The position numbers and the translations under genes were made by a program. The notes beneath the pieces were generated by a model. The model made no database searches. It was not told where the DNA came from and saw only the letters and a list, made by a program, of their open reading frames with translations. From Paracoccaceae bacterium (GTDB lineage Bacteria > Pseudomonadota > Alphaproteobacteria > Rhodobacterales > Rhodobacteraceae), in the NCBI GenBank assembly GCA_017510335.1, contig JAFWNM010000014.1:1-64000 (forward strand): DNA of 64,000 bases, in the 5' to 3' direction. Positions 18,604 through 42,786 of this stretch are shown in pieces. Numbering within the stretch: position 1 is the stretch's first letter; each line of letters opens with the position of its first letter.

Positions 18604-18607
18604 GGGC

Positions 18608-19690: not shown

Positions 19691-19696
19691 ACCGCC

Positions 19697-20485
19697 ATGC
19701 TGGAAGCACTGAACATTGATGCAGCCCTTGGCGGCAAACCCGTTTTGCAAAACGCCAGCCTGCGCGCGCAAGCAGGACAACTGACTGTTATTGTCGGGCC
19801 GAACGGGTCGGGCAAAACCACCCTTTTGCGTGCCATCACTGGCGATCTGGCGCATTCGGGAACTGTGCGCCTGAACGCGCAGGATACACGCAAACTGCCT
19901 GCTTGGGCGCTGGCCGAATTGCGGGCGGTGCTGCCACAGGCCAGCCAGCTTGCCTTTCCCTTCACGGTGCATGAAGTCGTGCGTTTCGGGTTGGTGGGGG
20001 CAACGGCCCTGCGCGCAGATGCAGCACAACTGCCGGGCCGCGCCCTGGAACGCGTGGGGCTTGCGGGCTATGGCGGTCGGTATTTTCAGGAACTGTCAGG
20101 CGGGGAACAGGCCCGCGCGCAACTTGCCCGCGTGTTGTTGCAGGTCTGGCAGCCGGTCGTGGACGGCGTGCCGCGCTGGCTGTTTCTGGACGAACCCGTG
20201 GCCGCGCTGGATATCGGCCACCAGTTGCAGGTCATGGCCTTGGCGCGCGAATTCGCCCGCGCAGGCGGCGGGGTGGTGGCGGTTATGCATGATTTGAACC
20301 TGACAGCCATGTTCGCAGACCAGATAACCCTGATGCTGGACGGGCAGGTTCTGGCACAGGGCAGCGTGCATGACGTGCTGACCGATGCGCACCTGTCGCG
20401 CGCCTATGGCTGCGCGCTGCGCGTATCCGCCCTGCCCCGCGCGCAGCAGGTGTTTATTCTGCCACAGGCCACAGAAATTGCCTGA
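19697..20485 (+). CDS. hmuV: Haem ABC transporter ATP-binding protein HmuV
   Basis: ABC ATPase (262 aa) with Walker A GPNGSGKTT (about residues 35-43), signature LSGGEQARAQLAR and Walker B WLFLDEPVAALD. The extended loop before Walker B (QVWQPVVDGVPR) is typical of HmuV. It powers the HmuU permease. It is the last gene before the receptor promoter. Confidence 0.92.
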   Translation: MLEALNIDAALGGKPVLQNASLRAQAGQLTVIVGPNGSGKTTLLRAITGDLAHSGTVRLNAQDTRKLPAWALAELRAVLPQASQLAFPFTVHEVVRFGLVGATALRADAAQLPGRALERVGLAGYGGRYFQELSGGEQARAQLARVLLQVWQPVVDGVPRWLFLDEPVAALDIGHQLQVMALAREFARAGGGVVAVMHDLNLTAMFADQITLMLDGQVLAQGSVHDVLTDAHLSRAYGCALRVSALPRAQQVFILPQATEIA

Positions 20486-20500
20486 CTAATCTTGACTATT

Positions 20501-20517
20501 TTACTAAACATTAGTAA
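20501..20517. promoter_or_regulatory. Palindromic operator candidate upstream of hmuR
   Basis: Perfect 7-3-7 palindrome TTACTAA-ACA-TTAGTAA, 58 bases before the hmuR start. TTGACT at 20492-20497 could be the -35 box, so a protein bound here would block transcription. An iron- or haem-responsive repressor is the obvious candidate, but I cannot match it to a named box. Confidence 0.55.
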
Positions 20518-20574
20518 CGAGGCCGTCAGAACGCCAGCGGTATCGCCAGCCAGAACACCACCAAGGGGATACCG

Positions 20575-22750: not shown

Positions 22751-23575
22751 TCAGGTGTTCTGCCGTGCGACACCGTGCCAGGGGGCAGAAACGATATTCT
22801 GCGCAGATGCCAGACCACAATCAAACAAGATGTCGGACCCGATATTGAACACCCGCGTATCGGGGCGCGTCGCGTCCGACAACAGCGCCACCGGGTTGGG
22901 CGTATGAAACCCCTGCGGCCCGCCCCCGATCAGCAAGGGCGCGACAGCAATATGCAGGCGTGTCAACAACCCCGCCTGAAAGAAACGCGACACGGTAATG
23001 CCGCCCCCTTCGACCAGAACAGTGTTCAGACCCGCAGCATGCAAGGCGCGCAGGATATGACGGGGCGACATGCTGCCGCCAGCAGCAGCGGGCAGGCGCA
23101 CCACCTCTACCCCCGCGGGACGCGCTGTGTCGACATGCTGCAAGACAATGCGCCGCACGCCATTATCCATGAACACCGGCGCATCATTCGGCAGCCGGCC
23201 GCGCGGGTCAATAACGACGCGTGCGGGGTTATGCCCTTCGCACAGGCGCACTGTCAGGCGCGGGCTGTCATGCAGTGCCGTGCGCACGCCAATGACAACC
23301 GCATCAGCGATGGCACGCAGCCGGTGCAGGTGCTTCAACCCGTCCGGCCCTGAAATATCGCGCGCATCCCCTGCGACCGTCGCCACGCGCCCGTCCAGGG
23401 ATTGCCCGATCTGGCCAATGGTCACCGGCCCCATATCGCGGCGGGCAAGCGGGGCATATATGGCCAGCGCCGCACGTTCCGCAGGTGTCCAGTCGCCGCA
23501 ACAGGGGCACCCCGTGCCATTGCGAATGCCCAGAATGTGCGCCCAGACCCGCGCGCTGACATCGGCCTTGTCCAT
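22751..23575 (-). CDS. RibD C-terminal-like reductase (dihydrofolate-reductase fold)
   Basis: Predicted NADPH-dependent reductase of pyrimidine or pterin intermediates (274 aa). It contains the RibD_C core: TIGQIGQSLDGRVAT, SRLTV-like SPRLTVRL, VLVEGGG and HIAVAPLLIGGG. The N-terminal cytidine-deaminase-like domain of full RibD is absent. Instead the N-terminus carries a GCPCCGDW cysteine cluster. The ATG at 23575 overlaps the methyltransferase stop (ATGA). It is the last gene of a five-gene operon with a RibA-like first gene. It may be a pathway-specific paralogue rather than the riboflavin enzyme. Confidence 0.82.
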   Translation of the reverse strand: MDKADVSARVWAHILGIRNGTGCPCCGDWTPAERAALAIYAPLARRDMGPVTIGQIGQSLDGRVATVAGDARDISGPDGLKHLHRLRAIADAVVIGVRTALHDSPRLTVRLCEGHNPARVVIDPRGRLPNDAPVFMDNGVRRIVLQHVDTARPAGVEVVRLPAAAGGSMSPRHILRALHAAGLNTVLVEGGGITVSRFFQAGLLTRLHIAVAPLLIGGGPQGFHTPNPVALLSDATRPDTRVFNIGSDILFDCGLASAQNIVSAPWHGVARQNT

Positions 23576-24372
23576 CACACCCCCCCGACTGCGCCAAGCT
23601 GCGCGACACGGCCTTTCGGGACGGCCAGAATGTCCTGATGGCCGATCATGCACTGGCCTTGCGTGACCTGCACCTGACGGGCGGCGTGCCATGCCTGCGC
23701 ATCGGTATAACCCGCGCGGGCGGCAGCGGTTGCAATCCCGTCCAGCAATTGCCCCTGCAGGGGCGCATCATCATGGCCCAGAACCCACGGGCTTGGGGCG
23801 CAAAACACATGATACCCTGCCTGCGCAAACACCTGGCGCGCACAGGACCACGCATGGGGGCCAAGGGCAGGACCAAAGCCCTTATCCGTGCACTGGTCCT
23901 TGTTGAACGCAGCCGTCACCGCGCCATCTGCCGCAAGCGGCGGTTGCCATGTCATGACCCCGTCATAGGACAGCGCCGCATAAAACGGCAGGTCATGATG
24001 CGCCAGCACATGCGCCAGATCCCGCAACCAGTTTTCGGAAACAAGGTCCAGCAAAGCCGATGCCGAAACAAGCGTGGCCCCGGACAGGGGAAGATCACGC
24101 AGGTTTGTCAGGTCACGCACATTCGGGCGCGCTTGGGGATGGGCGGCGACAGCATGTGCCAGCAGCGCGGGATCATGATCCACCAACTGCCATTGCGCAT
24201 TTTCTGGCATATGCGGCGACAAGGCGCGCAGGCTTGCGCCTGTCCCCGCGCCCAGATCGACAACAACAGGCGACGGTCCCGCAAGCCGCGCAGCCTGGCC
24301 CAGCAAGCCAGCGTCCCGCGCCGCAAGGTCGGCAGGTTCACGCAACGCCAGCCATTGCGGCGCGAAACCCAT
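23575..24372 (-). CDS. Class I SAM-dependent methyltransferase in pterin-like operon
   Basis: Rossmann-fold methyltransferase (265 aa) with motif I VVDLGAGTGASL, acidic QLVDHDPALLAHA and a post-motif region TLVSASALLDLVSE. It lies 3 bases after the PTPS-like gene and overlaps the RibD-like gene. In this context it may methylate a pyrimidine or pterin intermediate. ToxA has that kind of role in toxoflavin biosynthesis, alongside a GTP cyclohydrolase II and a RibD homologue. The substrate is inferred only. Confidence 0.8.
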   Translation of the reverse strand: MGFAPQWLALREPADLAARDAGLLGQAARLAGPSPVVVDLGAGTGASLRALSPHMPENAQWQLVDHDPALLAHAVAAHPQARPNVRDLTNLRDLPLSGATLVSASALLDLVSENWLRDLAHVLAHHDLPFYAALSYDGVMTWQPPLAADGAVTAAFNKDQCTDKGFGPALGPHAWSCARQVFAQAGYHVFCAPSPWVLGHDDAPLQGQLLDGIATAAARAGYTDAQAWHAARQVQVTQGQCMIGHQDILAVPKGRVAQLGAVGGV

Positions 24373-24375
24373 GGG

Positions 24376-24771
24376 CTACACGTCCCCTTCGAACCATGCG
24401 CGGGCCATATGGCTTTCGTGCAGGGTAATGCGCAACCGCCGCACGCGGCCCGCGTCCTTCAGGGTGCCTGCACCAATATGGCCGCGCATCTGGTCGAAAA
24501 TATGCTTGCACAGAAATTCCGTTGTGGTGAATTTTCCGGCGAATTCGGGAATTTCATCAAGGTTCTTGTAGCGCAGCGGTGCAAGCGTGGCGGCAAGCGC
24601 CTCAACCGCAAGGCCAATATCGACCACCAGACCGTGATCATCCAGATCCTCGGTGAAAAAGGCGGCATCCACTGTGAATGTCGCGCCATGCATGCCTTGC
24701 GCGGGGCCGAATACCGGCGACGGCAGGGAATGGGCGATCATGATATGGTCTTTGACTTCGACGGCGAACAT
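24376..24771 (-). CDS. Divergent 6-pyruvoyl-tetrahydropterin synthase / QueD-like protein
   Basis: PTPS/QueD-family protein (131 aa from the ATG at 24771; an upstream extension would run into the previous gene). The T-fold is recognisable, but key residues differ. His14 and His28 are present, whereas the third zinc ligand of the HGH motif is Ala30 (MHGAT) and the catalytic Cys position is Ala24. The Asp-His pair normally in a DHRYLN-type motif also seems lost (LRYKNLDE). A glutamate is kept in TTEFL and in LHESH. It therefore either performs a different reaction or is a binding protein. Confidence 0.8.
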   Translation of the reverse strand: MFAVEVKDHIMIAHSLPSPVFGPAQGMHGATFTVDAAFFTEDLDDHGLVVDIGLAVEALAATLAPLRYKNLDEIPEFAGKFTTTEFLCKHIFDQMRGHIGAGTLKDAGRVRRLRITLHESHMARAWFEGDV

Positions 24772-24787
24772 GGGCGTCCTTTCTGGT

Positions 24788-25738
24788 TCAGTCATAACGA
24801 ATGCGGTGGCACAGCGTGCCCGGCGCATTCAGGATCAAGGGATACGCGACAGGCAGATCATCGAAGGCGCTTTCGCCTGAAATCAGCGCATCCAGCCGGT
24901 CGTCACACAGCAGCGCCAGCGCCTTTTGCAGGCGGCGGCGAAATGTCCAGCGCGGCAGGCGCGCGGGCGGCAAGGCCCCGACCTGTGAACTGACCAGTTG
25001 CAGCCGCTGGCTGTGAAATGCCCCCCCCAGCGGCAAGGCCACGGACTGCGCGCCGTGCCAGCTGGCTTCCACCACAGTGGCGCCCGGCCCTGCGGCGTCC
25101 AGCGCGTGCGCCAGTCCAGAGGCTGACGCACTGGTGTTAATGACGACATCCTGCCCTTTGGGCATATCTGGCGGGGCGGTGAAATGGCACCCCAGCCCCC
25201 GCGCCAGGTCTGCGCGGGCGGGGTCAATATCGCTTAGCGTCACATCGCAGCCCGGAAAGCGCGCGCATAAGTAGCCCACCAAAGCGCCCAGAACACCCGC
25301 GCCCACAATGCACACCCTGTCACCGGCCGAAAGCCCGCTGTCCCAGACAATATTCAGGGCGGTTTCCATATTTGCCGCCAGCACAGCACGCGCGGGCGGC
25401 AGGGTGTCGGGCAGGGGCACGAACCCGTCCTCTGGCAACCTGAACCATGTCTGATGCGGAAACAGCGCGAACACCGCGCGGCCCGCCTGCGGCCCTTCGG
25501 CTATTTCGGCAACCGTGCAATAGCCGTATTTCACCGGATAGGGGAACGCCCCTTCCTGATGGGGGGCGCGCATGCGCGCCTGCTCGGACACGGGAACCGC
25601 ACCGCGCAAGACCAGACGCTCGGTCCCGCGACTGATGCCGGAATACAGGCTGCGCAGCCGCACCCCCTGCCCTGCCGTGGCGGGGCGTATTTCTGCGCGG
25701 TCAGGGGCGACCACCCATAAGGCGCGCGGGTCGCTCAT
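24788..25738 (-). CDS. Zinc-type alcohol dehydrogenase-like oxidoreductase
   Basis: MDR-superfamily oxidoreductase (316 aa). GroES-like N-terminal part with SLYSGISRGTERLVLRG; nucleotide-binding Rossmann motif CIVGAGVLGALVGYL. The usual zinc-ligand pattern of ADH (GHE and the four-Cys lobe) is not evident, so it may be a zinc-free reductase. Its ATG overlaps the RibA-like stop (ATGA), and the PTPS-like gene follows 16 bases later. It probably modifies a side chain of the operon's product. Confidence 0.8.
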   Translation of the reverse strand: MSDPRALWVVAPDRAEIRPATAGQGVRLRSLYSGISRGTERLVLRGAVPVSEQARMRAPHQEGAFPYPVKYGYCTVAEIAEGPQAGRAVFALFPHQTWFRLPEDGFVPLPDTLPPARAVLAANMETALNIVWDSGLSAGDRVCIVGAGVLGALVGYLCARFPGCDVTLSDIDPARADLARGLGCHFTAPPDMPKGQDVVINTSASASGLAHALDAAGPGATVVEASWHGAQSVALPLGGAFHSQRLQLVSSQVGALPPARLPRWTFRRRLQKALALLCDDRLDALISGESAFDDLPVAYPLILNAPGTLCHRIRYD

Positions 25739-26880
25739 GGCAGGATATGCCCGGATTTCAGCGCTTTTGTCGCCAGATAATGGGCGTTTTGCGGTGTTTG
25801 CCCCACCTGAAGCGGGACACGCTCGACCACATCAACCCCATGGCTTGCAAGGGTGCGCATCTTGGCGGGGTTGTTCGTCAACAGCCGCACCCGCCCGATG
25901 CCCAGTGATGACAGAACCGCCGCGCCCACGCGAAAATCGCGTTCATCATCCTCGAACCCCAGCTGGTGGTTGGCCTGCACCGTATCAAGCCCGCCATCTT
26001 GCAACGCATAGGCGCGCATCTTGTTGGCCAGCCCGATCCCGCGCCCTTCCTGATTAAGGTAGACCAGCATACCGCCCCCCGCCTGCGCCATGGCGGCCAG
26101 CGCAGCATTCAACTGGGGGCCGCAGTCACATTTCAGGCTGCCCAGAACATCGCCTGTGAAGCAGGCAGAATGCAGGCGCGTCAAACCCGGCTGGGCGCGC
26201 GCAACGGTGCCCACTGTAATGGCGTAATGCTCTGCCCCGCCATTGTCGGGGCGAAACACCTGAACCGACCCTGCCGCCGAACAGGCCATGGGCAGGGCCG
26301 CCGAACTGACTGCCGCCAGCCGTTGCGCACTGGCCAGTTCGTCCAGCACATCGCGCGCGGGCAGATAGGCCAGCCCCTGACGCAGCAGATTGTCGCGTGT
26401 GGCGACAGGAACAGGCCATAACAGCATTGCTGGCAAAAGCTGCGCGGCCTTGGCCAGTGCCAGCGCTGCGGCGCTCAGGGGGGCGGGGCAATCCGCCTGC
26501 ATGGTCCCCGCTGGCAGCGCTGCGTTTGCAACATGTGCCCCGCCTGCAATCTGGCGCAGGACGTCCAGTCCTGTTCCTGCGGGAAATGTCAGCGTGCCGG
26601 CGTGCCCTTTGGCCGCCCCCGCATCTGGAAAAACCGCAGAAAACCGCCGTGGCGACAGCACCAGATGCGGCGCACCCAACGCGCCAAGGCGCGCGAATCT
26701 CTCGGGCCGCACAGTTTCGACCGGCGCAAGAACGGCCATCTGGCCGCCGTCCCCTGTGACGACGGCCAAACCAAGCCGCATGTCGCACACCAGCCGCGCG
26801 ACAAGTTCACTGGCATCAAGTTCAAGGCCAGACGCTGTCTTGGCTGAATTTATGGCAATAGGATAAGTCACAGACCCCAC
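25735..26880 (-). CDS. GTP cyclohydrolase II (RibA-like) with long N-terminal region
   Basis: Opens the GTP imidazole ring to give 2,5-diamino-6-ribosylamino-pyrimidinone phosphate and formate (381 aa). The C-terminal half has the zinc site CFTGDVLGSLKCDCG (Cys-x10-Cys-x-Cys), the catalytic YLNQEGRGIGLANK and LTNNPAKM. The first 200 residues are not GCH2 and resemble the degenerate N-terminal part of alphaproteobacterial long RibA proteins. The start is a GTG at 26880; a later start is possible. It heads the five-gene operon. A second, housekeeping RibA elsewhere would be expected if this operon is specialised. Confidence 0.85.
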   Translation of the reverse strand: MGSVTYPIAINSAKTASGLELDASELVARLVCDMRLGLAVVTGDGGQMAVLAPVETVRPERFARLGALGAPHLVLSPRRFSAVFPDAGAAKGHAGTLTFPAGTGLDVLRQIAGGAHVANAALPAGTMQADCPAPLSAAALALAKAAQLLPAMLLWPVPVATRDNLLRQGLAYLPARDVLDELASAQRLAAVSSAALPMACSAAGSVQVFRPDNGGAEHYAITVGTVARAQPGLTRLHSACFTGDVLGSLKCDCGPQLNAALAAMAQAGGGMLVYLNQEGRGIGLANKMRAYALQDGGLDTVQANHQLGFEDDERDFRVGAAVLSSLGIGRVRLLTNNPAKMRTLASHGVDVVERVPLQVGQTPQNAHYLATKALKSGHILP

Positions 26881-27083: not shown

Positions 27084-27818
27084 ATGTCATTGCGCAGCAT
27101 GTTGGGCGTGTGCCGGTCTGTATTGATCTATTTCAACCCGCTGCTGATGCGCCGGACCAGACAGCTTTATAACAATATCTTGAACAGCGGTGATCTGGTC
27201 TTTGACGTGGGGGCGCATGTGGGAACGCGGGCGCGCGTCATGCGCGGCTGTGGCGCAAGGGTCATTGCATTCGAGCCGCAACCCGCCTTCGCGCAGTTTC
27301 TGCGCCGCACCCTGCCACGCGACATTGTGCTTGTGGAAGCCGCACTCGGGCCAGCAGAAGCGCGGGCAGAAATGTCGGTGTCGCTGCGTCACCCCACAGT
27401 GTCGTCCCTGCGCGCAACCCTGCCCGATGAGGCCCGCGCCATGCCGGGGTTTGAACATGTCCGCTGGGATGCCCGCGCAGAGGTGGCGATGACATCCTTG
27501 GACCGGATGATCGCGCAGCATGGCCTGCCGCGCTATATCAAGATCGACGTGGAAGGGTTCGAAACACAGGTTCTGTCCGGCCTGTCCCAACCTGTCGCGT
27601 TGATTTCGGTGGAGTATCTGCCCGGCCTGCCGGATGTCAGCCAACAGGCAATCCGCATGATCGCGGATCTGGGGCACTATGAATTCAACGTCGTTCGCGG
27701 GGAAAATGCCGCCTTCGAATGGAAGGAATGGCGCGACAGGGACGCGATGGCGGCATGGCTGGCCGCGCTGCCCCCTGACGCAGGGTCCGGCGATATCTAT
27801 GCGGCGCTGAAAGTCTGA
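27084..27818 (+). CDS. FkbM family methyltransferase
   Basis: SAM-dependent methyltransferase (244 aa from the ATG at 27084, which has AAGGTG 7 bases upstream; an in-frame ATG at 27001 would add 28 residues). Motif I is LVFDVGAHVGTRARVM, and the FkbM marks YIKIDVEGFETQVLSGL and ISVEY are present. FkbM enzymes O-methylate sugars or polyketides. It stands alone on the plus strand between the pterin-like operon and the envelope operon, so its product could serve either. Confidence 0.85.
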   Translation: MSLRSMLGVCRSVLIYFNPLLMRRTRQLYNNILNSGDLVFDVGAHVGTRARVMRGCGARVIAFEPQPAFAQFLRRTLPRDIVLVEAALGPAEARAEMSVSLRHPTVSSLRATLPDEARAMPGFEHVRWDARAEVAMTSLDRMIAQHGLPRYIKIDVEGFETQVLSGLSQPVALISVEYLPGLPDVSQQAIRMIADLGHYEFNVVRGENAAFEWKEWRDRDAMAAWLAALPPDAGSGDIYAALKV

Positions 27819-27834: not shown

Positions 27835-28677
27835 TCACCCGTTGGGGGGCGCCCTGCGAAGAACCGCCGCAAAGGGATCGAACAGCGGCGCACAGGCCGC
27901 AAGGACAGTGCCCGTGGCTTCGGGCGTTTCCGCCGGGTTCAGCGCTTCGACCTGCACCGCCGCTTCGTGCATCAGCACCAGCCCTGCGGCAATGTCCCAT
28001 GGCTGCAGCCGCCGTTCCCAGAACCCGTCCAGCCGCCCGCAGGCCACATAGGCCAGGTCAAGCGCCGCCGCCCCCATCCGGCGCACCCCCGCGCAAAGCG
28101 GCATCAAACGCGCGATATCAGCGGCGTGGGCGTCAATATGCGCCATCTGTCCGAAGGGTATGCCCGTTCCAAACAGCGCATCTTGCAGGCGCGGCGTCTG
28201 TGCCGCGTGCATCGGGACACCATTCAAAAACGCCCCTGCCCCGCGCACCGCATAGAAGGTTTCGCGCCGTAGCGGATCATGGACAACCCCCAGCACCCGC
28301 ACCCCGTCCACCTGCAGTGCGACCGAAATTGCCCAATGTCCGATCCCGCGCAGGAAATTTGTCGTGCCATCCAGCGGGTCAACGATCCAGACGCGCGCGG
28401 CATCTTGCGCAGGGGGGCGGGGGGAATGCGTCTCCTCGCCCAGCCAGTGGTCACCGGGGCGGCACAGGGTATCGCGCAACATCTGTTCGGTCTGGCGGTC
28501 TGCTGCGCTGACAAAATCGCCTGCGCGCTTTTCTGCCACATCCAGCCTGTCGCGGTCCGACCAGAATTCCAGCAACCCGTCCCCGGCGCGCGTGACCGCC
28601 GAAAGGACCGGCGCAAGTTCATGGCCATGCGCGGCGTCTTGCACCTGCGGGGGAACGAAGGGCGGCGTCTGCGTCAT
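27835..28677 (-). CDS. Inositol monophosphatase family protein
   Basis: Mg-dependent phosphatase (280 aa). The metal site is WLGEETH and WIVDPLDGTTNFLRGIGHW; the second motif is LQPWDIAAGLVLMHEA. It removes phosphate from inositol phosphate, sugar phosphate or PAP-like substrates. It is the last gene of a four-gene minus-strand operon, overlapping its predecessor (ATGA). Since a CDP-alcohol phosphotransferase heads that operon, it may prepare or recycle a polyol headgroup. Confidence 0.87.
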   Translation of the reverse strand: MTQTPPFVPPQVQDAAHGHELAPVLSAVTRAGDGLLEFWSDRDRLDVAEKRAGDFVSAADRQTEQMLRDTLCRPGDHWLGEETHSPRPPAQDAARVWIVDPLDGTTNFLRGIGHWAISVALQVDGVRVLGVVHDPLRRETFYAVRGAGAFLNGVPMHAAQTPRLQDALFGTGIPFGQMAHIDAHAADIARLMPLCAGVRRMGAAALDLAYVACGRLDGFWERRLQPWDIAAGLVLMHEAAVQVEALNPAETPEATGTVLAACAPLFDPFAAVLRRAPPNG

Positions 28678-29603
28678 TGTCTGTCACCTTCAACACTTGA
28701 TCGGGCCATGGCCGGTTGCTGCCGGCGCGCCATGCCCAGTTGCAGTGCCCATGGAATAACAGCCAGAAGCGCGGCGCCAAGGGCGGCCAGTCCAAAACTG
28801 ATACTGGCCGCAACAGCTTGCGACCCGGCAACCCCGACCAACGGCCAGAGCATCAGCGCGGCCCCTTCGCGCAGGCCCCACCCGTTGACCGAAACCGGCA
28901 CCAGCATGGCCAGCAATGTCAGCGGAATGACAAACAGCGCAGCGCCAAGGCCAAGCCCGACGCCCACGGCCTGCGCAGCGGCCCATACCCCGCCCAGATT
29001 ACAGCACAAGATCACACCCGTATAGGCCAGCTGGCGCGGCAGGACAGCGGGCGCGCACCACGCGGCCCGGACAGCATCGCGCACGGCACACGGCAACCAG
29101 CGCGCCCCCAACCAGCGCCCCCCGCCCCAGACCAGCGCAACAAGAAGGGCAACCAGCGGGGCAATGACCAACGCGCCCGCACCATGATAAACGACAGCCC
29201 ACCACCCCACACCAATACCCGCCGCCAGCGCAAGCGCCACCTGTCCCGCCAACCGTTCAATCACCACCGACCCGACAGCCAGCCGCCAGCCGCCATGCGC
29301 GCGCATGCGCGCCACGCGCCCCACATCGCCCAGCACCCCGCCGGGCAACAGCGTATTGCCCAGCACGGAAAGGGAATATTCGCATATCGCCCACAAGGTC
29401 GGCAGACGCACCCCAAGGGCCTGCGCCGTCAGCTGCCAGCGCAGCGCCGATACGACAATCTGACCGGCCAGCGCCGCCACGGCCAACGCCATCCAGCGCA
29501 TATCCACAGCGCGCAAATGCGGCCCAAGCGATGCTGGGTCCACCAGCCAGACCACCACCCCCAGCCCGGCCAGCGACGCCAGCAGGCGCAACGCCCACCT
29601 CAT
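28674..29603 (-). CDS. Lysylphosphatidylglycerol synthase TM-region / UPF0104 family membrane protein
   Basis: Polytopic inner-membrane protein (309 aa) with about eight hydrophobic helices. The family mark is EYSLSVLGNTLLPGGVLGDVGRVARM. Members lacking the aminoacyltransferase domain are thought to be flippase-like partners of lipid or glycan synthesis. It overlaps the sulfatase-like gene upstream and the IMPase-like gene downstream (both ATGA). It may move a lipid-linked precursor for the neighbouring transferase; that is inference. Confidence 0.8.
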   Translation of the reverse strand: MRWALRLLASLAGLGVVVWLVDPASLGPHLRAVDMRWMALAVAALAGQIVVSALRWQLTAQALGVRLPTLWAICEYSLSVLGNTLLPGGVLGDVGRVARMRAHGGWRLAVGSVVIERLAGQVALALAAGIGVGWWAVVYHGAGALVIAPLVALLVALVWGGGRWLGARWLPCAVRDAVRAAWCAPAVLPRQLAYTGVILCCNLGGVWAAAQAVGVGLGLGAALFVIPLTLLAMLVPVSVNGWGLREGAALMLWPLVGVAGSQAVAASISFGLAALGAALLAVIPWALQLGMARRQQPAMARSSVEGDRQ

Positions 29604-31225
29604 GGCGCGGCGCCCCCGCTGCCAAGGCGCGACAACAGAACATCGCGCATGGCATCCATCCGTATGGACGCGGTCGCGGGGGACGGGATCATGCCTTCGG
29701 CCCAGTCCAGTCCGGCAAACTGGTCAACCAGATCGGCGGGGCCGATGACATGCACAGGCACGTCAAACCCCTCGACCCCGGAAACGAAGCGGGCAGGTTC
29801 ATGGTCGCCCAGCATCACAACCAGCGGCGGGGTATCAGCATGGCGCGCAACCCAGTCCCCCATAGTTTGCAAGCTGTAATCCACAGCCAGACGGAACTGG
29901 TCGCGCACGCGGTCATGGTCGCGCCACACCACATCTGGCGGATCACCCGAAAGCGCCCATTGGTCAAAAATGGTGCCAGTGCCGATATCATCCCAATCCA
30001 CCAGTTCGGCAACCGGCACCCATGGTGCATGCGACGACACCAACGCCACCTGCACCACCAACGGCGTGCGGTCAGGCTGGTCACGTTCCAACCTGTCCAG
30101 CGCGTGCAAGGTAAACTGGTCGGGCATGGTAACCCAGTTGAAGGGCTGCCCCTCATAACCCAGATCGGCAGCGTTATAGATCGCGTCAAACCCGAAATAC
30201 TCGCCTTCCGGCCATGGAAATACATGCGCGGGTTTTATCGCAACAGTGCGCCGGCCAGCCTGTTGGGCATAGTGGAACAAGGTCTGGCGGGGGCTGGCAA
30301 TCAGCGCACGGTAGCGCGCCTGCGTGTCAAGCCACAGGCCGGATGCGACACTGCCATGTGTCAGCCAGCTTTGGCCGCCCACCATCGGGGCGCGCGCCCA
30401 GCCCGACCGCATGGCAAGGCCGCGCGCGGCCAGGTCCTGCTCGATACGGCGCAAGGTGGTCGTATGCGTCGGGTTATACAGCGGATTGTCGAAACTGGAC
30501 CGCCCATAGCTTTCGACATAGACAATCACCAGATCGCGCTGGCCCAACCTGTCGAAATGCGAGGGGGTGTCGCGCATGCTGTCTTGTTGGGCCGCCAGCC
30601 TGAAACGGGCCAGATCGGCGCGTGTGGTTCGGATTTGCTCCACCCGTTCCAGACCCACGCGCGCCGTGAACGCCGCCCCCGGAATTGCCGCCCCCAGCGC
30701 TGGCGGCAAGGACCATGCCCGCCGCGCCTGCCCTATTTCGGCCACCGCCAGCGCAAGCGCGGGCACAAACAGCACAGCAGCGGTTGCGCGCGGCAGCGTG
30801 GCAAGGTCCAGCCGCGAGAAAACCCCTGTCGCCCACCACAATGCGCCGCCCAGCAACACCACCAGAACGCCCCCGCCCACAACCGCAAGCACCGCAGCCA
30901 ACAACCCGATACTGCCCCGCGTCAGGTCCCATGCCGCAGGCAGAAGGTTATAATCGGCAACCAGATTGAACCCGCGATTGAACGCTATGAAGGTGCCGAA
31001 ATCCGCCAGTTTCAGTATTGCAATCGCCACCAGCGCCACGACAAGCCCCACCCGCAGCGCCCCACCCGCGCGCCCGCCCCCAAGCACAAGAAGCGCTGCC
31101 AGAATGACCGGCAATTCCAGCGGGAAAACGCCCAAGGCCCCCCAACTTAAGGCGGCGGGGTGGTTGGGCTGGATCAGCACCAGATACAGCACACCTGTTG
31201 CCAGTCCAAGGCGCAGGAAAATCAC
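29600..31225 (-). CDS. Membrane-anchored sulfatase/phosphoglycerol-transferase-like protein
   Basis: 541 aa from a GTG at 31225 that overlaps the previous stop (GTGA). The open frame extends about 170 residues further upstream, but that part is a shadow of the CDP-alcohol gene. About four N-terminal helices are followed by a periplasmic alkaline-phosphatase-fold domain: VIVYVESYGRSSFDN, the probable nucleophile Ser in GGQSWLTHGS and metal motif MLGDHEP. This layout matches LtaS/OpgB-type enzymes. With OpgG/H genes nearby, addition of phosphoglycerol or a similar group to periplasmic glucans is plausible. Confidence 0.8.
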   Translation of the reverse strand: MIFLRLGLATGVLYLVLIQPNHPAALSWGALGVFPLELPVILAALLVLGGGRAGGALRVGLVVALVAIAILKLADFGTFIAFNRGFNLVADYNLLPAAWDLTRGSIGLLAAVLAVVGGGVLVVLLGGALWWATGVFSRLDLATLPRATAAVLFVPALALAVAEIGQARRAWSLPPALGAAIPGAAFTARVGLERVEQIRTTRADLARFRLAAQQDSMRDTPSHFDRLGQRDLVIVYVESYGRSSFDNPLYNPTHTTTLRRIEQDLAARGLAMRSGWARAPMVGGQSWLTHGSVASGLWLDTQARYRALIASPRQTLFHYAQQAGRRTVAIKPAHVFPWPEGEYFGFDAIYNAADLGYEGQPFNWVTMPDQFTLHALDRLERDQPDRTPLVVQVALVSSHAPWVPVAELVDWDDIGTGTIFDQWALSGDPPDVVWRDHDRVRDQFRLAVDYSLQTMGDWVARHADTPPLVVMLGDHEPARFVSGVEGFDVPVHVIGPADLVDQFAGLDWAEGMIPSPATASIRMDAMRDVLLSRLGSGGAAP

Positions 31226-31995
31226 GCGACCTGCCCCCGTCTGGCCCACAGCGCCCGGATATCCACAGCAAAGGACATCACAACCACCGCAAGCACCACT
31301 GCCCCCACCAGCCCTGAAACCGGCGGGGTCAGAACCGGGGCCAGCAACACCACCTGTGCCCCCATCTGCGTGCCCGCAACCACACGGCGGCGTGTGGACG
31401 GGGGCAGCGATGCGCGCAGCGCGGGCCAGACATGGGCAGCCCCCAAAAACGCAGGGCGCAGCAGGCCCAGCGCCAGAAACCACACCCCCACCTTGCCCGC
31501 CGCCACAGCAAGCGCTGCGGTGACAAGGGCGAACGCCACGTCGGTTTCCACATCCAGCCGTGCCCCGAAACGCGATGTCAGGCCCGCGCGCCGCGCTGCC
31601 CAACCATCCACACCGTCCAGCGCAAGAACAATGGCCGCAAGCCCCGCCAGCAGCCAGCCCCCGCCCTGCGCGACCGCTTGCGGCACGGCCAGCAGCCCCG
31701 CCATCGCGGCGATGCACGCCCCGCGCCACAAGGTGACAACATTCGCCACGCCCAGCCTGTCATGGGGAAAATACACCGGCTTCAGCCCCGCCAGCACCAG
31801 AACAGCCCCGGCCAGCCAGAACGCAGCCGCAAGCGCGGCACATGCCAAAGCGGCGCGCGGCCCCATACCGGCGGCCTGCCCCAACCCATAGGCGCCGCCG
31901 GTGGCAATAGCCCCGGCACAGGCAATCGCGCAGACCACCTGAAGGCGGACACGCGCGAAGGGACGGGCGGGTTTTGAAAAGGACAGGTCAACCAT
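31222..31995 (-). CDS. CDP-alcohol phosphatidyltransferase family protein
   Basis: Integral membrane enzyme (257 aa) with the complete motif DGx2ARx8Gx3Dx3D at residues 130-152, ending Asp148 and Asp152. It joins an alcohol (glycerol phosphate, inositol phosphate and so on) to a CDP-activated lipid or alcohol. It is the first gene of the four-gene operon and translationally coupled to the sulfatase-like gene. The alcohol is unknown; the IMPase-like gene in the operon hints at a polyol. Confidence 0.87.
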   Translation of the reverse strand: MVDLSFSKPARPFARVRLQVVCAIACAGAIATGGAYGLGQAAGMGPRAALACAALAAAFWLAGAVLVLAGLKPVYFPHDRLGVANVVTLWRGACIAAMAGLLAVPQAVAQGGGWLLAGLAAIVLALDGVDGWAARRAGLTSRFGARLDVETDVAFALVTAALAVAAGKVGVWFLALGLLRPAFLGAAHVWPALRASLPPSTRRRVVAGTQMGAQVVLLAPVLTPPVSGLVGAVVLAVVVMSFAVDIRALWARRGQVA

Positions 31996-32137
31996 TGGTG
32001 GCGATCTAGCGTTGCCTGTATCAAGTCAATGCCTGTTCCCGAAAACCCCACCCCCCTTGACACACTTGCGCTTGCCTTTTTCTGGATTGACCTATCGTTA
32101 GGGCGTAAACCTATGCGCACATCGGAAAGATGTTTTG

Positions 32138-32701
32138 ATGACCCAACCCCCGACGCACCCGTTACGCCATGCCGCGCTGACCCGCGCTTTGCACTGGATC
32201 GTGGCAGTTATGGTCATCGCCATGCTGCCTGTCGGTGTTGTCATGCTGTCGGACGGGCTTGCACGTCCGACACAGGACTTGTTGTTTATCCTGCACAAGA
32301 ATGGGGGCGTTGCGATCTTGTTGCTGGTCATACTGCGGCTGGCATGGCGTGCGCGCACCCCTGCGCCGCCCATGCCTGCGGGCATGTCACCGCTTCAGGC
32401 CGGGGCCGCCCGCGCGGCGCATTGGGCGCTTTATGCGCTTTTGCTGGTGATGGCGATCAGCGGGTATGTGCGCGTGCGGGCGGGCGGTTTTCCCATTGAG
32501 ATGCTGGATGCGCTGGGCCTGCCAACATTTGTCCCCCGTTCGGAATCGCTGGCAGAAATCGCTAAGGCCATTCACGCAAATGCCCGTTTTGCGCTGGCGG
32601 GGCTGATCTTGTTGCATGTCGGCGCAGCCATGATGCACCTTGTTCGCCGTGACGGGGTGTTCGGGCGCATCTGGCCACCTTTGGGCAAAAGCGGGCAATG
32701 A
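32138..32701 (+). CDS. Cytochrome b561
   Basis: Small dihaem membrane cytochrome (187 aa) with four helices. Likely haem histidines are in ALHWIVAVMV, LHKNGGVAIL, AAHWALYALL and ILLHVGAAMMHL. The ATG at 32138 was preferred to the TTG one codon earlier. It moves electrons from quinol to periplasmic acceptors or relieves superoxide. The stop overlaps the opgH-like start (ATGA), which is an odd partner for glucan synthesis. Confidence 0.88.
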   Translation: MTQPPTHPLRHAALTRALHWIVAVMVIAMLPVGVVMLSDGLARPTQDLLFILHKNGGVAILLLVILRLAWRARTPAPPMPAGMSPLQAGAARAAHWALYALLLVMAISGYVRVRAGGFPIEMLDALGLPTFVPRSESLAEIAKAIHANARFALAGLILLHVGAAMMHLVRRDGVFGRIWPPLGKSGQ

Positions 32702-35160
32702 CGCTGACACGCGCACGCCATCTGCATATGTTGGGCAGCCTTGCTCTGGCGGGCGGGTTAAGCGCGCTTTTGTGGCACGGGCTGGATATAGCGGCCACCC
32801 ATCCCGTATTGGCGGGCGCCGCGCTGGCGTTGTTTGGCGTCAATGCCCTGTGGCTGTCGGCAGCGGCGGTGACGGCCCTTACGGGGTTTTGGGTGCTGCG
32901 CCGCACCCCCCCCGTGGCGGCCGCAACGATTGCCCCCCAACCGCCCCGCCCGCAATGTGCCATTTTATGGCTGGTGTGCGGGGAACCACCCGAACCTATG
33001 GCCCGGCGCATTGCGGCCATGATCGCGGGGCTGGAGCAAACCGGGCAAGCGCAGTCCTGCACAGTTTTCGTGCTCTCGGATACAGGGGGCGCACAGGCAC
33101 TGGAACGCGAAAAGGCCGCGCTTGAACCATTCGGCAACCGTATCATCTGGCGCAATCGCAGCACGCCTGCAGGACGCAAACCCGGCAATCTGCAGGACTG
33201 GCTTGAGGCCCATGGGGACGGGTTTGATACCATGCTGGTTCTGGATGCGGATAGCGGTTTCAGTGCCGGGCGGCTGGCGCATATGCGCGCCGCAATGGCA
33301 GCAGACCCGCAACTTGGCCTTGTTCAGGCGGCCATCAACCTGCGTCCGGGTCATAGCCGTATTGCGGCCATGCAGCGGCTGTCCGCGCGCCTGTGCGGGC
33401 CGGTTTTTGCGCATGGTCTGGCGCATTTAAGTGGCGATGCGGGCAATTACTGGGGCCATAATGCGCTGGTGCGGGTTGCCGCCTTCGCCAAGGTCGCGCA
33501 ACTGGCCCCGCTGTCGGGGCGCCCCCCCTTTGGTGGTCCGGTGCTCAGCCATGATTTCGTGGAAGCTGCCCTGATGCGCGCCGCCGGATGGCGCGTGTGC
33601 ATTTCGCCTGACGCGCGCGGCAGTTTCGAAGACGCGCCCGAAAGCGTGTCCAGCCACCTGCGCCGCGACCGGCGCTGGGCGCAGGGCAATTTGCAGCACA
33701 TGCGCCTGATCGGCCGGCGCGGCCTGCACCCTGCCAGCCGCCTGCATTTTCTGGCGGGTATTCATTCCTACCTGTCCGCCCCGGTCTGGCTGGCACTGGT
33801 TTTGCTGATGGGGTCGGGGGCAGTGCATGCCAGCCCGCAGGCTGTCTGGTCATTGCTGGGCGCGGTATTGGTGCTGCTGGTGCCAAAATTCACGGGCGTT
33901 GCGGCGCAGCGCAGGGCCTTGGGCCAGGCCGGGCGCAGGCGGGTTCTGTTGCGGGCCTTGATGGCGGAACTGTGGTTGACCACGCTGTTTGCCCCCATCG
34001 GCATGTTGCGGCGCAGCGGCTTTTTGCTGGCGCTGCTGGCAGGCCGCGATGCGGGGTGGAAGCCTTCCGGGCAGGTGGGCGGAACCGCACGGTTTACCGG
34101 GCGCGGGGAACAGATATCCGCGCTGGCCATTCTGGCCGGTGTCATTACCCCGCAAGTCATGATCGGCACACCCGCAACCGCCCTGCTGTCGGCCGCCATG
34201 GTCATGCCGGTGGTTGGGCCATTGCTGGCCGCGCCGTGGCTGATACGCTGGCTGGACGCCCCTGCGAAAGATGATCCCGTCGCCCGCTACTATGACGCCA
34301 GCACAGCGCGTTTTCTGGCTGTTGGCGGGACTGGTGCGGCGCTGGCCATCCATCGCCCGCTTTGGGCAGACGGCACCACGTCCACACAAGCCGCCGCAGC
34401 CCACGCAAATGACCTGATTGCCAGGGCCGCACTGGCAGCACTTGGGCGCGCGCCGCAACATGTCTGTGATCTGGGGTGCGGGGTGGGCGGCAGCCTGTTC
34501 CATCTGGCGCGGTTGTGGCCTGACACCCTGCTGACAGGCATCACGCTAAGCGCGCAGCAGGTCCGGCTGGGGCGCATGCATGCGCGTGCCCTGGGGCTGG
34601 AACAGCAATGCCGCTTCGTGCAGTCGGATTTCACGCTGCCCACAAACCTGCCCCGCGCGGACCTTGTGCTGGCAATCGAAAGCCATGTCCATATCGACAG
34701 CGCGGCGCGTTTTCTGGAAGCGGCGCGGTCACATCTGGCACCGGGGGGCGTGCTGGTTGTGGTGGATGACATGCTGGCGCGCCCCGATGACCACCTGTCG
34801 CCACGCGAACGCGCCCTTGTGCGCACCTTCCGAAAGGGGTGGCGTCTGGGCCATGTGACCGCGCAAAGCGCCTTCATCGCGCAGGCGCAGGCGCTGGGAT
34901 ACACTTCACTGGCCGCGCATGACCTGAACGCATTGCTGCGCCTGAACCGCATGCGCGACCACGCCTTGCGGTATGCGGGGCCGGTCGCGGACTGGCTGGG
35001 CCTGTCGCGTTTTGCGCTATTTGCAAATATGGTGGGCGGCAACGCCCTGACGCAAGCCTACCGTGCAGGTATCATGACCTACAGCATGGTGGTTTTGCGC
35101 GCGCCTGACACTGCCAAAACCAACGAAGGGCGCGTGACACAAAGGATGGATGCCGCATGA
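32698..35160 (+). CDS. OpgH-like glucan glucosyltransferase fused to a SAM methyltransferase
   Basis: 820-residue fusion. Two N-terminal helices are followed by a GT2 domain with the processive-synthase residues: DAD at 183-185, Asp286 in SHDFVEA and RRDRRW at 322-327. Further membrane helices run to about residue 520. This part matches OpgH/MdoH, which makes the backbone of osmoregulated periplasmic glucans from UDP-glucose. From about residue 525 a class I methyltransferase follows, with motif I VCDLGCGVGG (589-598) and a cyclopropane/tocopherol-methyltransferase-like lay-out. There is no stop between the parts. OpgG follows with an ATGA overlap. The methyl acceptor is unknown. Confidence 0.85.
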   Translation: MTLTRARHLHMLGSLALAGGLSALLWHGLDIAATHPVLAGAALALFGVNALWLSAAAVTALTGFWVLRRTPPVAAATIAPQPPRPQCAILWLVCGEPPEPMARRIAAMIAGLEQTGQAQSCTVFVLSDTGGAQALEREKAALEPFGNRIIWRNRSTPAGRKPGNLQDWLEAHGDGFDTMLVLDADSGFSAGRLAHMRAAMAADPQLGLVQAAINLRPGHSRIAAMQRLSARLCGPVFAHGLAHLSGDAGNYWGHNALVRVAAFAKVAQLAPLSGRPPFGGPVLSHDFVEAALMRAAGWRVCISPDARGSFEDAPESVSSHLRRDRRWAQGNLQHMRLIGRRGLHPASRLHFLAGIHSYLSAPVWLALVLLMGSGAVHASPQAVWSLLGAVLVLLVPKFTGVAAQRRALGQAGRRRVLLRALMAELWLTTLFAPIGMLRRSGFLLALLAGRDAGWKPSGQVGGTARFTGRGEQISALAILAGVITPQVMIGTPATALLSAAMVMPVVGPLLAAPWLIRWLDAPAKDDPVARYYDASTARFLAVGGTGAALAIHRPLWADGTTSTQAAAAHANDLIARAALAALGRAPQHVCDLGCGVGGSLFHLARLWPDTLLTGITLSAQQVRLGRMHARALGLEQQCRFVQSDFTLPTNLPRADLVLAIESHVHIDSAARFLEAARSHLAPGGVLVVVDDMLARPDDHLSPRERALVRTFRKGWRLGHVTAQSAFIAQAQALGYTSLAAHDLNALLRLNRMRDHALRYAGPVADWLGLSRFALFANMVGGNALTQAYRAGIMTYSMVVLRAPDTAKTNEGRVTQRMDAA

Positions 35161-36716
35161 ACAGACGTGATTTCCTGAACGGGGTTTGCGCGGCTGCGCT
35201 GGCCCCTGCACTGGTCTTAACCGCCGCACGGGCAGAAACACCGCCGCCCCTGCCCGACCCGCAGGCCATGATTGACGCAGCCCGCCATCTGGCACAATCG
35301 CCCTATGCGCCGCGCCCGCAAATTCTGAACGCGCCCTTCGCGGCGTTAAGTTATGACAGCTATCGTGGTATTCGCCCCCGCCCGGGGTATGCTGGCGATC
35401 TGGCACTTGGGCCGCATTTCGTGGCAGATCTGCTGCCGCCGGGCTGGTTGTTCCGCGACCCCGTCAGCATTGACCTGCCTGACCATGATACAGCGTTTTC
35501 CGCGCAGTTGTTCGACTATGACCCGCGCTATTTCACGCCGCCCCCGCAGGCAGGCGTCTTGCCGGATATGGGGTTTTCAGGGCTGCGGCTGCGCCATCAG
35601 CTAAACCGCGCGGGCATCTGGGACGAAGTGCTTGTGCTGCAGGGGGCCAGTTATTTCCGCGCGCTGGCCAGGGGCACGGTCTATGGCCTGTCGGCGCGCG
35701 CGCTGGCCCTTGGCACTGGCGGCCCCACACCGGAAGAATTTCCTGTCACGCGCCATATCACTGTGTTTGACAGCGGGACCAGCGTGCAGTTTGGCTGCCT
35801 TGTTGACAGCCCGCGATGTGCGGCGGCCTTGATTGCGACACTGACGCCGGGTGACACCACGACCATGGACTGCACATTGCATCTGTTTGCCCGCACCCGC
35901 ATCGAGGATGCGGGCATTGCGCCCCTGACATCAATGTTCCAGCACAACGACCTTGGCCCCGCCACAATAGATGATTTCCGCCCTGCGGTGCATGACAGCG
36001 ACGTTCTGGTGATGGACAATGGCGCGGGCGAACGGCTGTGGCGCCCGCTTGCCAACCCCGCACAGGTGCAGGTTTCCGCGTTCGAGGATACCACCCCCCG
36101 CGGGTTCGGAGTGATGCAGATGCCCGTTGAATTCACGCATTTCCGCGATCAGGAAGGGGCCTATCACCGTCGCCCGTCAGTATGGGTTACCCCCCGTGGC
36201 AACTGGGGGGCGGGGGCGGTCATGCTGCTGGAAATTCCGACACCGAATGAATTTGCCGATAACATCGTTGCCTTCTGGCGCCCCCGGACCGCGCTGGAAC
36301 CCGGCGAACACCGCTTTGCCTACAGGCTGGACTGGTGCCCGCCCGGCCCTAGCGCATTGCCCGCGCAGGATCATCCGCTGCTGCCCCTGCGCAGCGCCTC
36401 AGGGATTGAACCAAACGCAGGCGAAGGGCGGCTTTTTGTCCTGGACTTCAAGCCCGCCCCCGGGACGGGGAATACTGCGGATTACACGCAAGCGCAGCTT
36501 GATTTCGGAACGGACCCCGCAGCAACATACATTACGGGCGCGGCCTTCTACCCCTTGCGCGAAGAAAGCGGGGCATGGCGGGCCAGTTTTGTCTTTACGC
36601 CGCCCGCCGACATGACGGTTGCGGAACTGCGGTTGCGCCTGCGCCTGCCATCGGGCGCGCTGCTGGCCCCGGTGTGGTTGCACCGCTGGACGCGCAGCCA
36701 TGGGGGCGGCGTATGA
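35157..36716 (+). CDS. opgG: Periplasmic glucan biosynthesis protein OpgG/OpgD family
   Basis: Exported protein (519 aa) needed with OpgH for periplasmic glucan formation. The N-terminus NRRDFLNG plus a hydrophobic stretch and Ala-Arg-Ala is a Tat-type signal, as in OpgD. The MdoG domain starts at about residue 35; conserved parts include ALSYDSYRGIRPRP and LGTGGPTPEEFPVTRHI. Overlaps with opgH (ATGA) and with the next glycosyltransferase (ATGA) place it mid-operon. Confidence 0.92.
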   Translation: MNRRDFLNGVCAAALAPALVLTAARAETPPPLPDPQAMIDAARHLAQSPYAPRPQILNAPFAALSYDSYRGIRPRPGYAGDLALGPHFVADLLPPGWLFRDPVSIDLPDHDTAFSAQLFDYDPRYFTPPPQAGVLPDMGFSGLRLRHQLNRAGIWDEVLVLQGASYFRALARGTVYGLSARALALGTGGPTPEEFPVTRHITVFDSGTSVQFGCLVDSPRCAAALIATLTPGDTTTMDCTLHLFARTRIEDAGIAPLTSMFQHNDLGPATIDDFRPAVHDSDVLVMDNGAGERLWRPLANPAQVQVSAFEDTTPRGFGVMQMPVEFTHFRDQEGAYHRRPSVWVTPRGNWGAGAVMLLEIPTPNEFADNIVAFWRPRTALEPGEHRFAYRLDWCPPGPSALPAQDHPLLPLRSASGIEPNAGEGRLFVLDFKPAPGTGNTADYTQAQLDFGTDPAATYITGAAFYPLREESGAWRASFVFTPPADMTVAELRLRLRLPSGALLAPVWLHRWTRSHGGGV

Positions 36717-37783
36717 GCGCCCACCAACCCCATCCTGAAATTGCCTTCGCGCTGCCCGGTGACATTCACGCACGCAGTGGCGGCACACAGTATGACCGCC
36801 GCGTGATTGAAACCCTGCGCGCACTGGGCCAGCCGGTGCGCCATTTGGCGCTACCCGCCAGCTGGCCTGCGCCTGACACCACTGATACTGCGGCTACATT
36901 GGCGCAGTTGCGCGGATTGCCGCAAGATATGCCCGTTATCATTGACGGGCTGGCCTTCGGGGCGATGCAAACCCGTGACGTGGCGGCATTGGACCGGCGC
37001 GTGATTGTCATGTTGCACCATCCGCTTGGGCTGGAAACGGGGCTTGCCGAAGCGCGCGCGGCGGAATTGATCACCCGCGAGGCAGCGAATCTGCGCCATG
37101 CTGCGCATGTCATTGTGCCGTCAGGGCATATCAAGACCATTCTGGGCCAGCAATTCGGCGTTGAGGGCACGCGCGTTACCGTAGCCCCGCCCGGTTTTGA
37201 CCGCACAGCCCCCGCCCTGCCCCGCCCGCGCAAGGATGACCCGCCGCTTATTCTGACGGTTGGCCTGATTTGCGAACGCAAGGGGCATGACGTGGTGCTG
37301 CGCGCACTTGGCAAGATCGCGGAACTTGACTGGTGTTCGGTCATCGTGGGGGCGGTGCAGGATGCCGCGTTGCTGTCGCGGCTGAAGGGGGTGCGCGATG
37401 ATCTGGGCCTGCGCCATCGCGTGCATTTCCCCGGCGAGATGTCCCCACAGGCGCTGTCGGATTATTACAGCCGCGCGCATGTGTTTGCACTGGCCACGCG
37501 GTATGAAGGGTATGGCATGGTTCTGAGCGAGGCGCAGCTTCACGGCCTGCCCATTGTTACCTGTGCCACAGGTGCGGTTCCCGAAACCCTGCGCGGTGCG
37601 GGGTTGCTGGTCCAGCCTGATGATGTGGATGCCTTCGCGCAGGCATTGCGCAGGTTGCTGACGGACGCGGCCACGCATGACATATTATCGCGCGAAAGCC
37701 AGATGGCAGGGGCAACATTGCCGCACTGGCGCGACACAGCGCATATTTTTCAGCAGGTCATAGGCAACCACGCTGCACAATGA
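36713..37783 (+). CDS. Glycosyltransferase family 4 (group 1)
   Basis: GT-B fold transferase (356 aa) with the nucleotide-sugar site LTVGLICERKGHDVVLRAL and the EGYGMVLSEAQLHGLP motif (E-x7-E), followed by CATGAVPETLRGAGLLV. It is cytosolic or membrane-associated. Its ATG overlaps the opgG stop. It could add side residues to the glucan or make a lipid-linked sugar for the region's other enzymes. The donor sugar is unknown. Confidence 0.85.
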   Translation: MSAHQPHPEIAFALPGDIHARSGGTQYDRRVIETLRALGQPVRHLALPASWPAPDTTDTAATLAQLRGLPQDMPVIIDGLAFGAMQTRDVAALDRRVIVMLHHPLGLETGLAEARAAELITREAANLRHAAHVIVPSGHIKTILGQQFGVEGTRVTVAPPGFDRTAPALPRPRKDDPPLILTVGLICERKGHDVVLRALGKIAELDWCSVIVGAVQDAALLSRLKGVRDDLGLRHRVHFPGEMSPQALSDYYSRAHVFALATRYEGYGMVLSEAQLHGLPIVTCATGAVPETLRGAGLLVQPDDVDAFAQALRRLLTDAATHDILSRESQMAGATLPHWRDTAHIFQQVIGNHAAQ

Positions 37784-40003: not shown

Positions 40004-40115
40004 CGCTTCCGTCCCAGTTTTGCGCAGAAGTAAGGCGCTTTGTCTAATTCATGGTCAATGCGGCGGCGCAGTGCTGCATCGTCTTGATGAATTGGTTTTA
40101 TCGCTTCCCATAAGG

Positions 40116-40133: not shown

Positions 40134-40210
40134 TTCAGAGACCGTGCAAAAACCAACGAACGGTTACCGAATAAGCAAACGCCTTGTCTGAACGACTGGC
40201 CCCAAACGGG

Positions 40211-41725: not shown

Positions 41726-41736
41726 TCATGAAACCA

Positions 41737-42785: not shown

Positions 42786-42786
42786 T

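Follow-up and report, generated by a model that had tools for sequence, protein, structure and literature searches.

Gene content of the operon

The first 64,000 nucleotides of contig JAFWNM010000014.1 from a Paracoccaceae bacterium (assembly GCA_017510335.1), hereafter the window, contain a minus-strand operon at 22751-26880 that encodes, in order of transcription, GTP cyclohydrolase II (GCHII; RibA), a medium-chain dehydrogenase/reductase (MDR) dehydrogenase, a PTPS-family protein, an S-adenosylmethionine (SAM) methyltransferase and a RibD C-terminal-domain protein (RibD-C). An earlier note, made by reading the sequence, had proposed that these five families form a unit, coupled by overlaps or gaps of at most 16 bases, that makes a GTP-derived compound other than riboflavin. 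Indeed, all five families were confirmed by Pfam searches (Table 1), and the junctions are as tight as claimed: the RibA and dehydrogenase genes share a 4-base ATGA overlap, read from the sequence, the PTPS-like gene follows after 16 bases when its start is placed at 24771, the methyltransferase gene after a further 3 bases, and the RibD-C gene overlaps the latter by a single base. The starts of the PTPS-like (24771) and RibD-C (23575) genes were picked from junction and alignment, and longer reading frames are possible for both. The dehydrogenase and methyltransferase fall below the Pfam cut-offs, yet both align well across relatives. As described below, the chemistry that had been suggested is plausible at its start; the extent was drawn too narrowly, so that the earlier reading is partly supported.

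Distribution and linkage of the gene set

The gene families were mapped in 111 loci, comprising the window, 22 genomes of the same family, 8 plasmids and 80 genome contigs, by tblastn matches longer than 200 bases with an E-value of 1e-6 or better; many of these loci are cut by contig ends. Beside the PTPS-like gene, the most frequent families were the methyltransferase (104 loci), the dehydrogenase (102), a family 4 glycosyltransferase (GT4; 93) and RibD-C (75), followed by RibA (41). Accessory families included a CDP-alcohol phosphatidyltransferase (CDP-AP; 45), cytochrome b (45), an OpgH (MdoH)-type glycosyltransferase (43), an FkbM methyltransferase (43) and a sulfatase-fold protein (37), and more rarely an LPG-synthase-TM membrane protein (LPG-TM; 35), an inositol monophosphatase family protein (IMPase; 25), OpgG (4) and a creatininase-family protein (3). 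Where at least 7.5 kb was available on both sides (80 loci), the dehydrogenase and methyltransferase were each present in 77, GT4 in 70, RibD-C in 56 and RibA in 33, and in 74 of these 80 the first mapped cluster gene met upstream of PTPS was the dehydrogenase, with the same orientation.

The 80 contig loci came from a search with PTPS motifs, as the best 80 of at least 590 confirmed; we therefore ran a motif-free check, in which a PTPS profile was searched against 398 Pseudomonadota genomes. This search returned 27 positive genomes, our own included, of which 20 neighbourhoods were fetched, with the own genome and six others set aside. The dehydrogenase was found in all 20, GT4 in 19, the methyltransferase and RibD-C in 18 each and RibA in 10, along with CDP-AP (11), LPG-TM (10), OpgH (9), OpgG (6), creatininase (5) and FkbM (5). 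Because the dehydrogenase lies nearest upstream of PTPS in 74 of 80 loci, and adjoins it in the same orientation in all 20 neighbourhoods of this phylum draw, the linkage exceeds what chance would give.

A four-gene core of dehydrogenase, PTPS, GT4 and methyltransferase was present in 83 of the 111 loci and 17 of the 20 phylum-draw loci, and the same core with RibD-C in 60 and 15, respectively. The exact five genes of the earlier note co-occur in 36 of 111 and 8 of 20 loci, and only 9 of the 111 have them in the order seen in the window, the window counted. The five genes as such are thus not the conserved unit, as GT4 belongs to the core in relatives and RibA is optional. The expectation that the genes would be found together in other Rhodobacterales did hold, both within that order and beyond it. 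In the bacterium's own family 23 of 295 genomes were PTPS-positive, and plasmid records with the cluster or its relatives came from rhizobia, Methylosinus, Thiodictyon, Streptomyces and Microbacterium, which suggests that the gene set moves between distant bacteria. In summary, we observe directly the gene families, their linkage and co-occurrence, and the loss of residues described below, and the cluster is an uncharacterised and widespread one that contains a known orphan structure.

Several further observations accompany this survey. Three Streptomyces plasmids (L147, L148 and L149) carry a relative of the SCO6650 type of PTPS (see below) outside any such cluster, and share nearby BTAD-regulator, sigma-factor, cupin and MBL-fold genes. 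A contig assigned to an actinobacterial Aquiluna metagenome-assembled genome (L080) holds a Rhodobacteraceae-like cluster with a PTPS-like protein 72% identical, which reflects either a misbinned contig or a recent transfer. Among viral contigs, 21 pattern matches included no relative. Of the other recurring neighbours, an ABC transporter ATPase was the commonest, at 32 loci, and we judged it to be background; smaller groups of 9-10 loci are presumably LysR-like and OpgC-like proteins, and several groups resembled wrong-frame open reading frames.

Properties of the encoded proteins

The sole close solved relative of the PTPS-like protein is SCO6650 of Streptomyces coelicolor (PDB 3d7j), matched at 132.9 bits over residues 15-147, as against about 20 bits for QueD chains and 30.7 bits for NCBIfam QueD, below its cut-off of 89.25. 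The position that we take to be the third zinc-ligand His of PTPS is Ala in 111 of 111 sequences, and the position that we take to be its catalytic Cys is Ala in 110 and Gly in one, with Glu138 kept in 109 and gaps in the other two. The 31 sequences not picked by motif gave the same picture (Ala at both positions in 31 of 31; Glu in 29, gaps in 2). Therefore, the label "PTPS/QueD-like" cannot be read as an ordinary PTPS or QueD: judged by these residues, the protein does not have the three zinc His and catalytic Cys that define those enzymes, and it has likely lost PTPS catalysis and kept recognition of a 2-amino-4-oxo ring. It could still be argued that this is the QueD of queuosine synthesis among unrelated neighbours, since the NCBIfam match exists and the gene is the only PTPS-family match in its genome. 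This we find scarcely credible, as QueC was not found in the own genome by a search whose control was positive in 12 of 14 genomes (above cut-off in 11), and the protein is far closer to SCO6650.

RibD-C, a protein of the DHFR-like fold, gave no deaminase domain match in Pfam. Its best PDB matches were 6p8c (88.6 bits) and 2azn (83.0 bits), two archaeal reductases whose names refer to the undeaminated substrate 2,5-diamino-6-ribosylamino-4(3H)-pyrimidinone 5'-phosphate (DARPP), whereas bifunctional RibD chains reached at most 62.6 bits; against NCBIfam rib_reduct_arch it scored 95.2 bits, below the cut-off of 186.45. By these matches RibD-C is classed as a stand-alone reductase nearest to the archaeal DARPP reductases. 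A profile of the cluster RibD-C separates the cluster type (at least 246 bits) from other RibD proteins (at most 140 bits), and the cluster type was found in 18 of 23 PTPS-positive family genomes and in 0 of 20 PTPS-negative ones (Fisher p 1e-7 with relatedness ignored, the negatives being those listed in the family search and not a random draw). The association also appears at a distance, RibD-C lying about 360 kb from PTPS in one genome (G101) and on other contigs in two more (G083 and G122).

RibA, in turn, behaves as an optional supply gene, because a second strong GCHII copy (at least 169 bits) was present in 5 of the 23 positives (G000, G063, G074, G150 and G286), and the 20 negatives had none; this is in keeping with an intermediate that riboflavin synthesis also uses. 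It might instead be that the pathway enters through GTP cyclohydrolase I, with FolE giving dihydroneopterin triphosphate, the PTPS-like protein binding it, RibD-C reducing a dihydropterin and RibA serving some other need. The PTPS fold with its conserved Glu, the absence of RibA from 70 of the 111 fetched stretches and the existence of cyanopterin, a glycosylated pterin in which a sugar is methylated (PMC3546692), would all agree with such a branch. The restriction of second strong GCHII copies to PTPS-positive genomes and the placement of RibD-C nearest to DARPP reductases speak against it, and we regard it as possible but unlikely.

In both Streptomyces clusters (L060 and L150) RibA has Met in place of the Tyr found in the window, and a creatininase-family gene adjoins. 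In all seven loci that have both genes, in fact, no more than 214 bases separate the creatininase-family gene from RibA. We considered whether creatininase is the strict complement of a Met-type GCHII and rejected this, because among 51 RibA loci five proteobacterial ones of the Tyr type also carry creatininase, beside 2 with Met and creatininase and 44 with Tyr and no creatininase; the link stands as a one-way trend only. On three other Streptomyces plasmids the creatininase genes lie outside such a cluster. In Sinorhizobium meliloti the creatininase-family protein BrbF is described, in an excerpt of PMC9478397, as deformylating a formyl intermediate to DARPP.

The two remaining proteins are less distinctive. 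The best NCBIfam match of the dehydrogenase was bchC (31.4 bits, far below cut-off), and across 101 dehydrogenase proteins Cys reached a majority at a single column, residue 310, near the C-terminus; it is thus without the conserved Cys zinc ligands of zinc alcohol dehydrogenases. A profile of the methyltransferase matched the "ToxA protein" chain 8rdl, which we take to be a toxoflavin enzyme, at an E-value of 0.0098, behind many generic methyltransferases (best 3.9e-06). The comparison with toxoflavin made in the earlier note is accordingly weak, as the methyltransferase is only generically ToxA-like and the RibD-like protein is deaminase-free and nearest to archaeal reductases. A toxoflavin- or pseudoiodinine-like azapteridine pathway would explain why GCHII, a RibD-related protein and a methyltransferase stand together, as they do in the psd operon (PMC9911603); it is nevertheless highly improbable, given that methyltransferase and the fact that none of the 14 genes in the extended locus described below has a deaminase, WD40 or SUMF1-type domain. 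Of the product guess, a GTP-derived 2-amino-4-oxo-pyrimidine or pterin remains the best choice.

The genome also carries riboflavin genes elsewhere, which bears out the claim that the operon does not serve riboflavin synthesis. RibBA and RibH were found on contig C1, RibA on C34 (54% identical over 367 aa to the window RibA), RibD and a second RibH on C9 and RibE on C7, the two lumazine synthase (RibH) copies lying at C1:112818-113216 and C9:75325-75738. A second, flavin-secreting riboflavin branch could be imagined from the presence of GCHII and a RibD reductase domain, and separate flavin routes are reported for S. meliloti (PMC9478397, in part). However, Pfam matched none of the 14 genes to a deaminase, RibB, RibH or RibE domain, and the PTPS-like protein, GT4 and methyltransferase would be left unexplained, making such a branch very unlikely. 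Because the riboflavin genes sit elsewhere and no QueC was found, the locus is neither a riboflavin nor a queuosine locus.

The extended locus and its putative envelope modules

The five genes are one operon of a probable 14-gene locus that extends to 37783 (Table 1). The nine further genes belong to families that recur beside the core in relatives. Four of them form a second minus-strand operon (31995-27835; CDP-AP, sulfatase fold, LPG-TM and IMPase), and four a plus-strand run (32135-37783; cytochrome b561, an OpgH-like fusion, OpgG and GT4), of which the last gene is the counterpart of the GT4 found after PTPS in most relatives. The place of OpgG in the unit is the least certain, because OpgG is rare (4 of 111 loci). 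In an 8-row alignment of the sulfatase-fold protein E261, S309, D497 and H498 are invariant, and the same alignment used as a profile gave no PDB match at E 0.001. A promoter scan returned 8 sites against 3.1 expected; two of them, at 32704 and 27613-27640, are close to gene starts or within genes, and the argument here draws on none of the eight.

Table 1. Genes of the 14-gene locus in the window, with the match on which each assignment is based.
Feature	Position	Strand	Evidence
RibD C-terminal (reductase) domain protein without deaminase domain	22751..23575	-	PF01872 118.1 bits
SAM methyltransferase, own family	23575..24372	-	Methyltransf_25 26.2 bits, below Pfam cut-off 27
PTPS/QueD-like T-fold protein, SCO6650 type	24376..24771	-	PF01242 74.4 bits; PDB 3d7j 132.9 bits
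MDR (BchC-like) dehydrogenase without Cys zinc ligands	24788..25738	-	ADH_zinc_N 25.5 bits, below Pfam cut-off 31.8
GTP cyclohydrolase II (RibA), Tyr of "KMRAY" present	25735..26880	-	PF00925 195.8 bits
FkbM family methyltransferase	27084..27818	+	TIGR01444 81.3 bits, above cut-off
Inositol monophosphatase family protein, candidate ribityl-phosphate phosphatase	27835..28677	-	PF00459 180.5 bits
LPG-synthase-TM membrane protein	28674..29603	-	PF03706 106.4 bits
Membrane protein, sulfatase fold	29600..31225	-	PF00884 33.6 bits
CDP-alcohol phosphatidyltransferase	31222..31995	-	PF01066 54.7 bits
Cytochrome b561 family protein	32135..32701	+	PF01292 86 bits
OpgH/MdoH-like glycosyltransferase fused to SAM methyltransferase domain	32698..35160	+	domain search
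OpgG/MdoG periplasmic glucan protein	35157..36716	+	PF04349 431.9 bits
GT4 glycosyltransferase	36713..37783	+	30-49% identity to 13 cluster GT4 proteins

In the 80 loci with long flanks, CDP-AP and OpgH occurred alone in 33 and 26 loci, together in 5 and not at all in 16, and the sulfatase-fold gene was found only alongside CDP-AP (31 of 31). This pattern suggests two alternative envelope modules, and lineage alone could also cause it; the window locus carries both. With CDP-AP, sulfatase-fold, LPG-TM, FkbM, OpgH and OpgG genes surrounding the core, and with the expected zinc and catalytic positions of PTPS substituted, one might read the whole as a locus for an envelope glycan or lipid: the PTPS-like protein would serve as a binder or scaffold, the substrates of the dehydrogenase, methyltransferase and GT4 would be sugars, and RibA and RibD-C would be loosely associated. 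We consider this doubtful, since RibD-C tracks PTPS across genomes even when the two are not adjacent and lies beside PTPS in 18 of 20 phylum-draw loci.

Outside the locus, the genes directly adjoining the operon (17761-22662) encode a substrate-binding protein, a permease, an ATPase and a TonB-dependent receptor, a set that we take to resemble haem uptake. The stretch after the locus (37815-46271) presumably holds a gamma-glutamyltransferase-like gene, a TetR-like gene and an oligopeptide-type ABC transporter.

Proposed pathway

We propose, giving it about an even chance, that this widespread and conserved locus, which is apart from vitamin B2 synthesis and probably moves horizontally, diverts GTP into a glycosylated, methylated, pterin-like specialised metabolite. 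Each catalytic step and the product are predicted, the early steps from homology and co-occurrence. GCHII, from the locus or as the housekeeping copy, would convert GTP to DARPP, and the deaminase-free RibD-C would reduce the ribose of DARPP to ribityl in archaeal style; since this would proceed without deamination, the 2-amino-4-oxo ring would be retained. A phosphatase, here the IMPase, may then take off the phosphate. The PTPS-like T-fold protein would bind the 2-amino-4-oxo ring via its conserved Glu; together with the BchC-like dehydrogenase it might shape the side chain or close a pterin ring, after which the methyltransferase would methylate and GT4 then glycosylate the product. In many lineages the CDP-AP, sulfatase-fold and LPG-TM proteins, or else the OpgH-like module, may tie the product to the envelope or export it. 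A more specific version, in which hundreds of species in at least two phyla use these modules to make a membrane-anchored or exported glycoconjugate with an undeaminated 8-ribityl-pterin or ribityl-diaminopyrimidine head, is tentative and unlikely as it stands.

Several observations weigh against the proposed diversion of GTP. RibA is present in just 41 of the 111 loci, and RibD-C is missing from 36 of the 111 fetched stretches and was not found as the cluster type in five positive genomes (G008, G017, G162, G194 and G259). Therefore, reduction may not be obligatory, or the drafts may be incomplete; G122, for example, is a fragmented draft in which a contig break may merely hide linkage of RibD-C to PTPS. 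The distribution of creatininase over the 51 RibA loci given above counts on the same side, and the envelope genes may have a separate role. As for the phosphatase, an IMP-family enzyme of A. aeolicus acted on a related ribityl phosphate in vitro in a screen (PMC12051542); an excerpt of the same paper also says that it did not sustain riboflavin synthesis when combined with the other steps of the pathway.

Comparison with known systems

The nearest known protein is SCO6650, which is of the same family as the window PTPS-like protein and reportedly has no PTPS activity; its neighbour in tag number, SCO6655, is said to make a formyl intermediate. The latter is listed as a GTP cyclohydrolase II (PMC2853524, in part), and changed GCHII activities are described for three Streptomyces isogenes in an excerpt of PMC3509567. 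In Streptomyces fungicidicus (L060) the gene order is dehydrogenase, PTPS, GT4, methyltransferase, LPG-TM, creatininase and RibA, which, going by tag numbers, would fit the spacing of SCO6650 and SCO6655. The window locus differs in having the Tyr rather than the Met form of RibA and no mapped creatininase. We found no described pathway for SCO6650 and no paper on this gene set in the open-licence literature, and such papers may still exist. For this orphan fold, whose structure is solved, the loci compared here supply a set of partner genes and point to DARPP, or the ribityl compound derived from it, as the likely substrate; they also include many hosts that can be cultured.

Among pathways with related chemistry, the psd/tox operons share GCHII, a RibD-related protein and a methyltransferase with the window locus, and their partners, as described in an excerpt of PMC9911603, include a RibD with deaminase, a WD40 protein and a SUMF1-type protein. 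The window locus lacks the WD40 and SUMF1-type genes and the deaminase domain, and adds the PTPS-like protein, dehydrogenase and GT4. Cyanopterin is a pterin to which sugars are attached, and one of these sugars is methylated; the product proposed here is likewise glycosylated and methylated. The cyanopterin pathway enters via GTP cyclohydrolase I, unlike the proposed GCHII entry (PMC3546692, in part). Early riboflavin synthesis in archaea shares the stand-alone reductase type (6p8c, 2azn) and GTP as the starting nucleotide, whereas the window locus has other partners and is without a deaminase and the later riboflavin genes. If the proposed pathway is true, an archaeal-style reduction step would be used outside of riboflavin synthesis.

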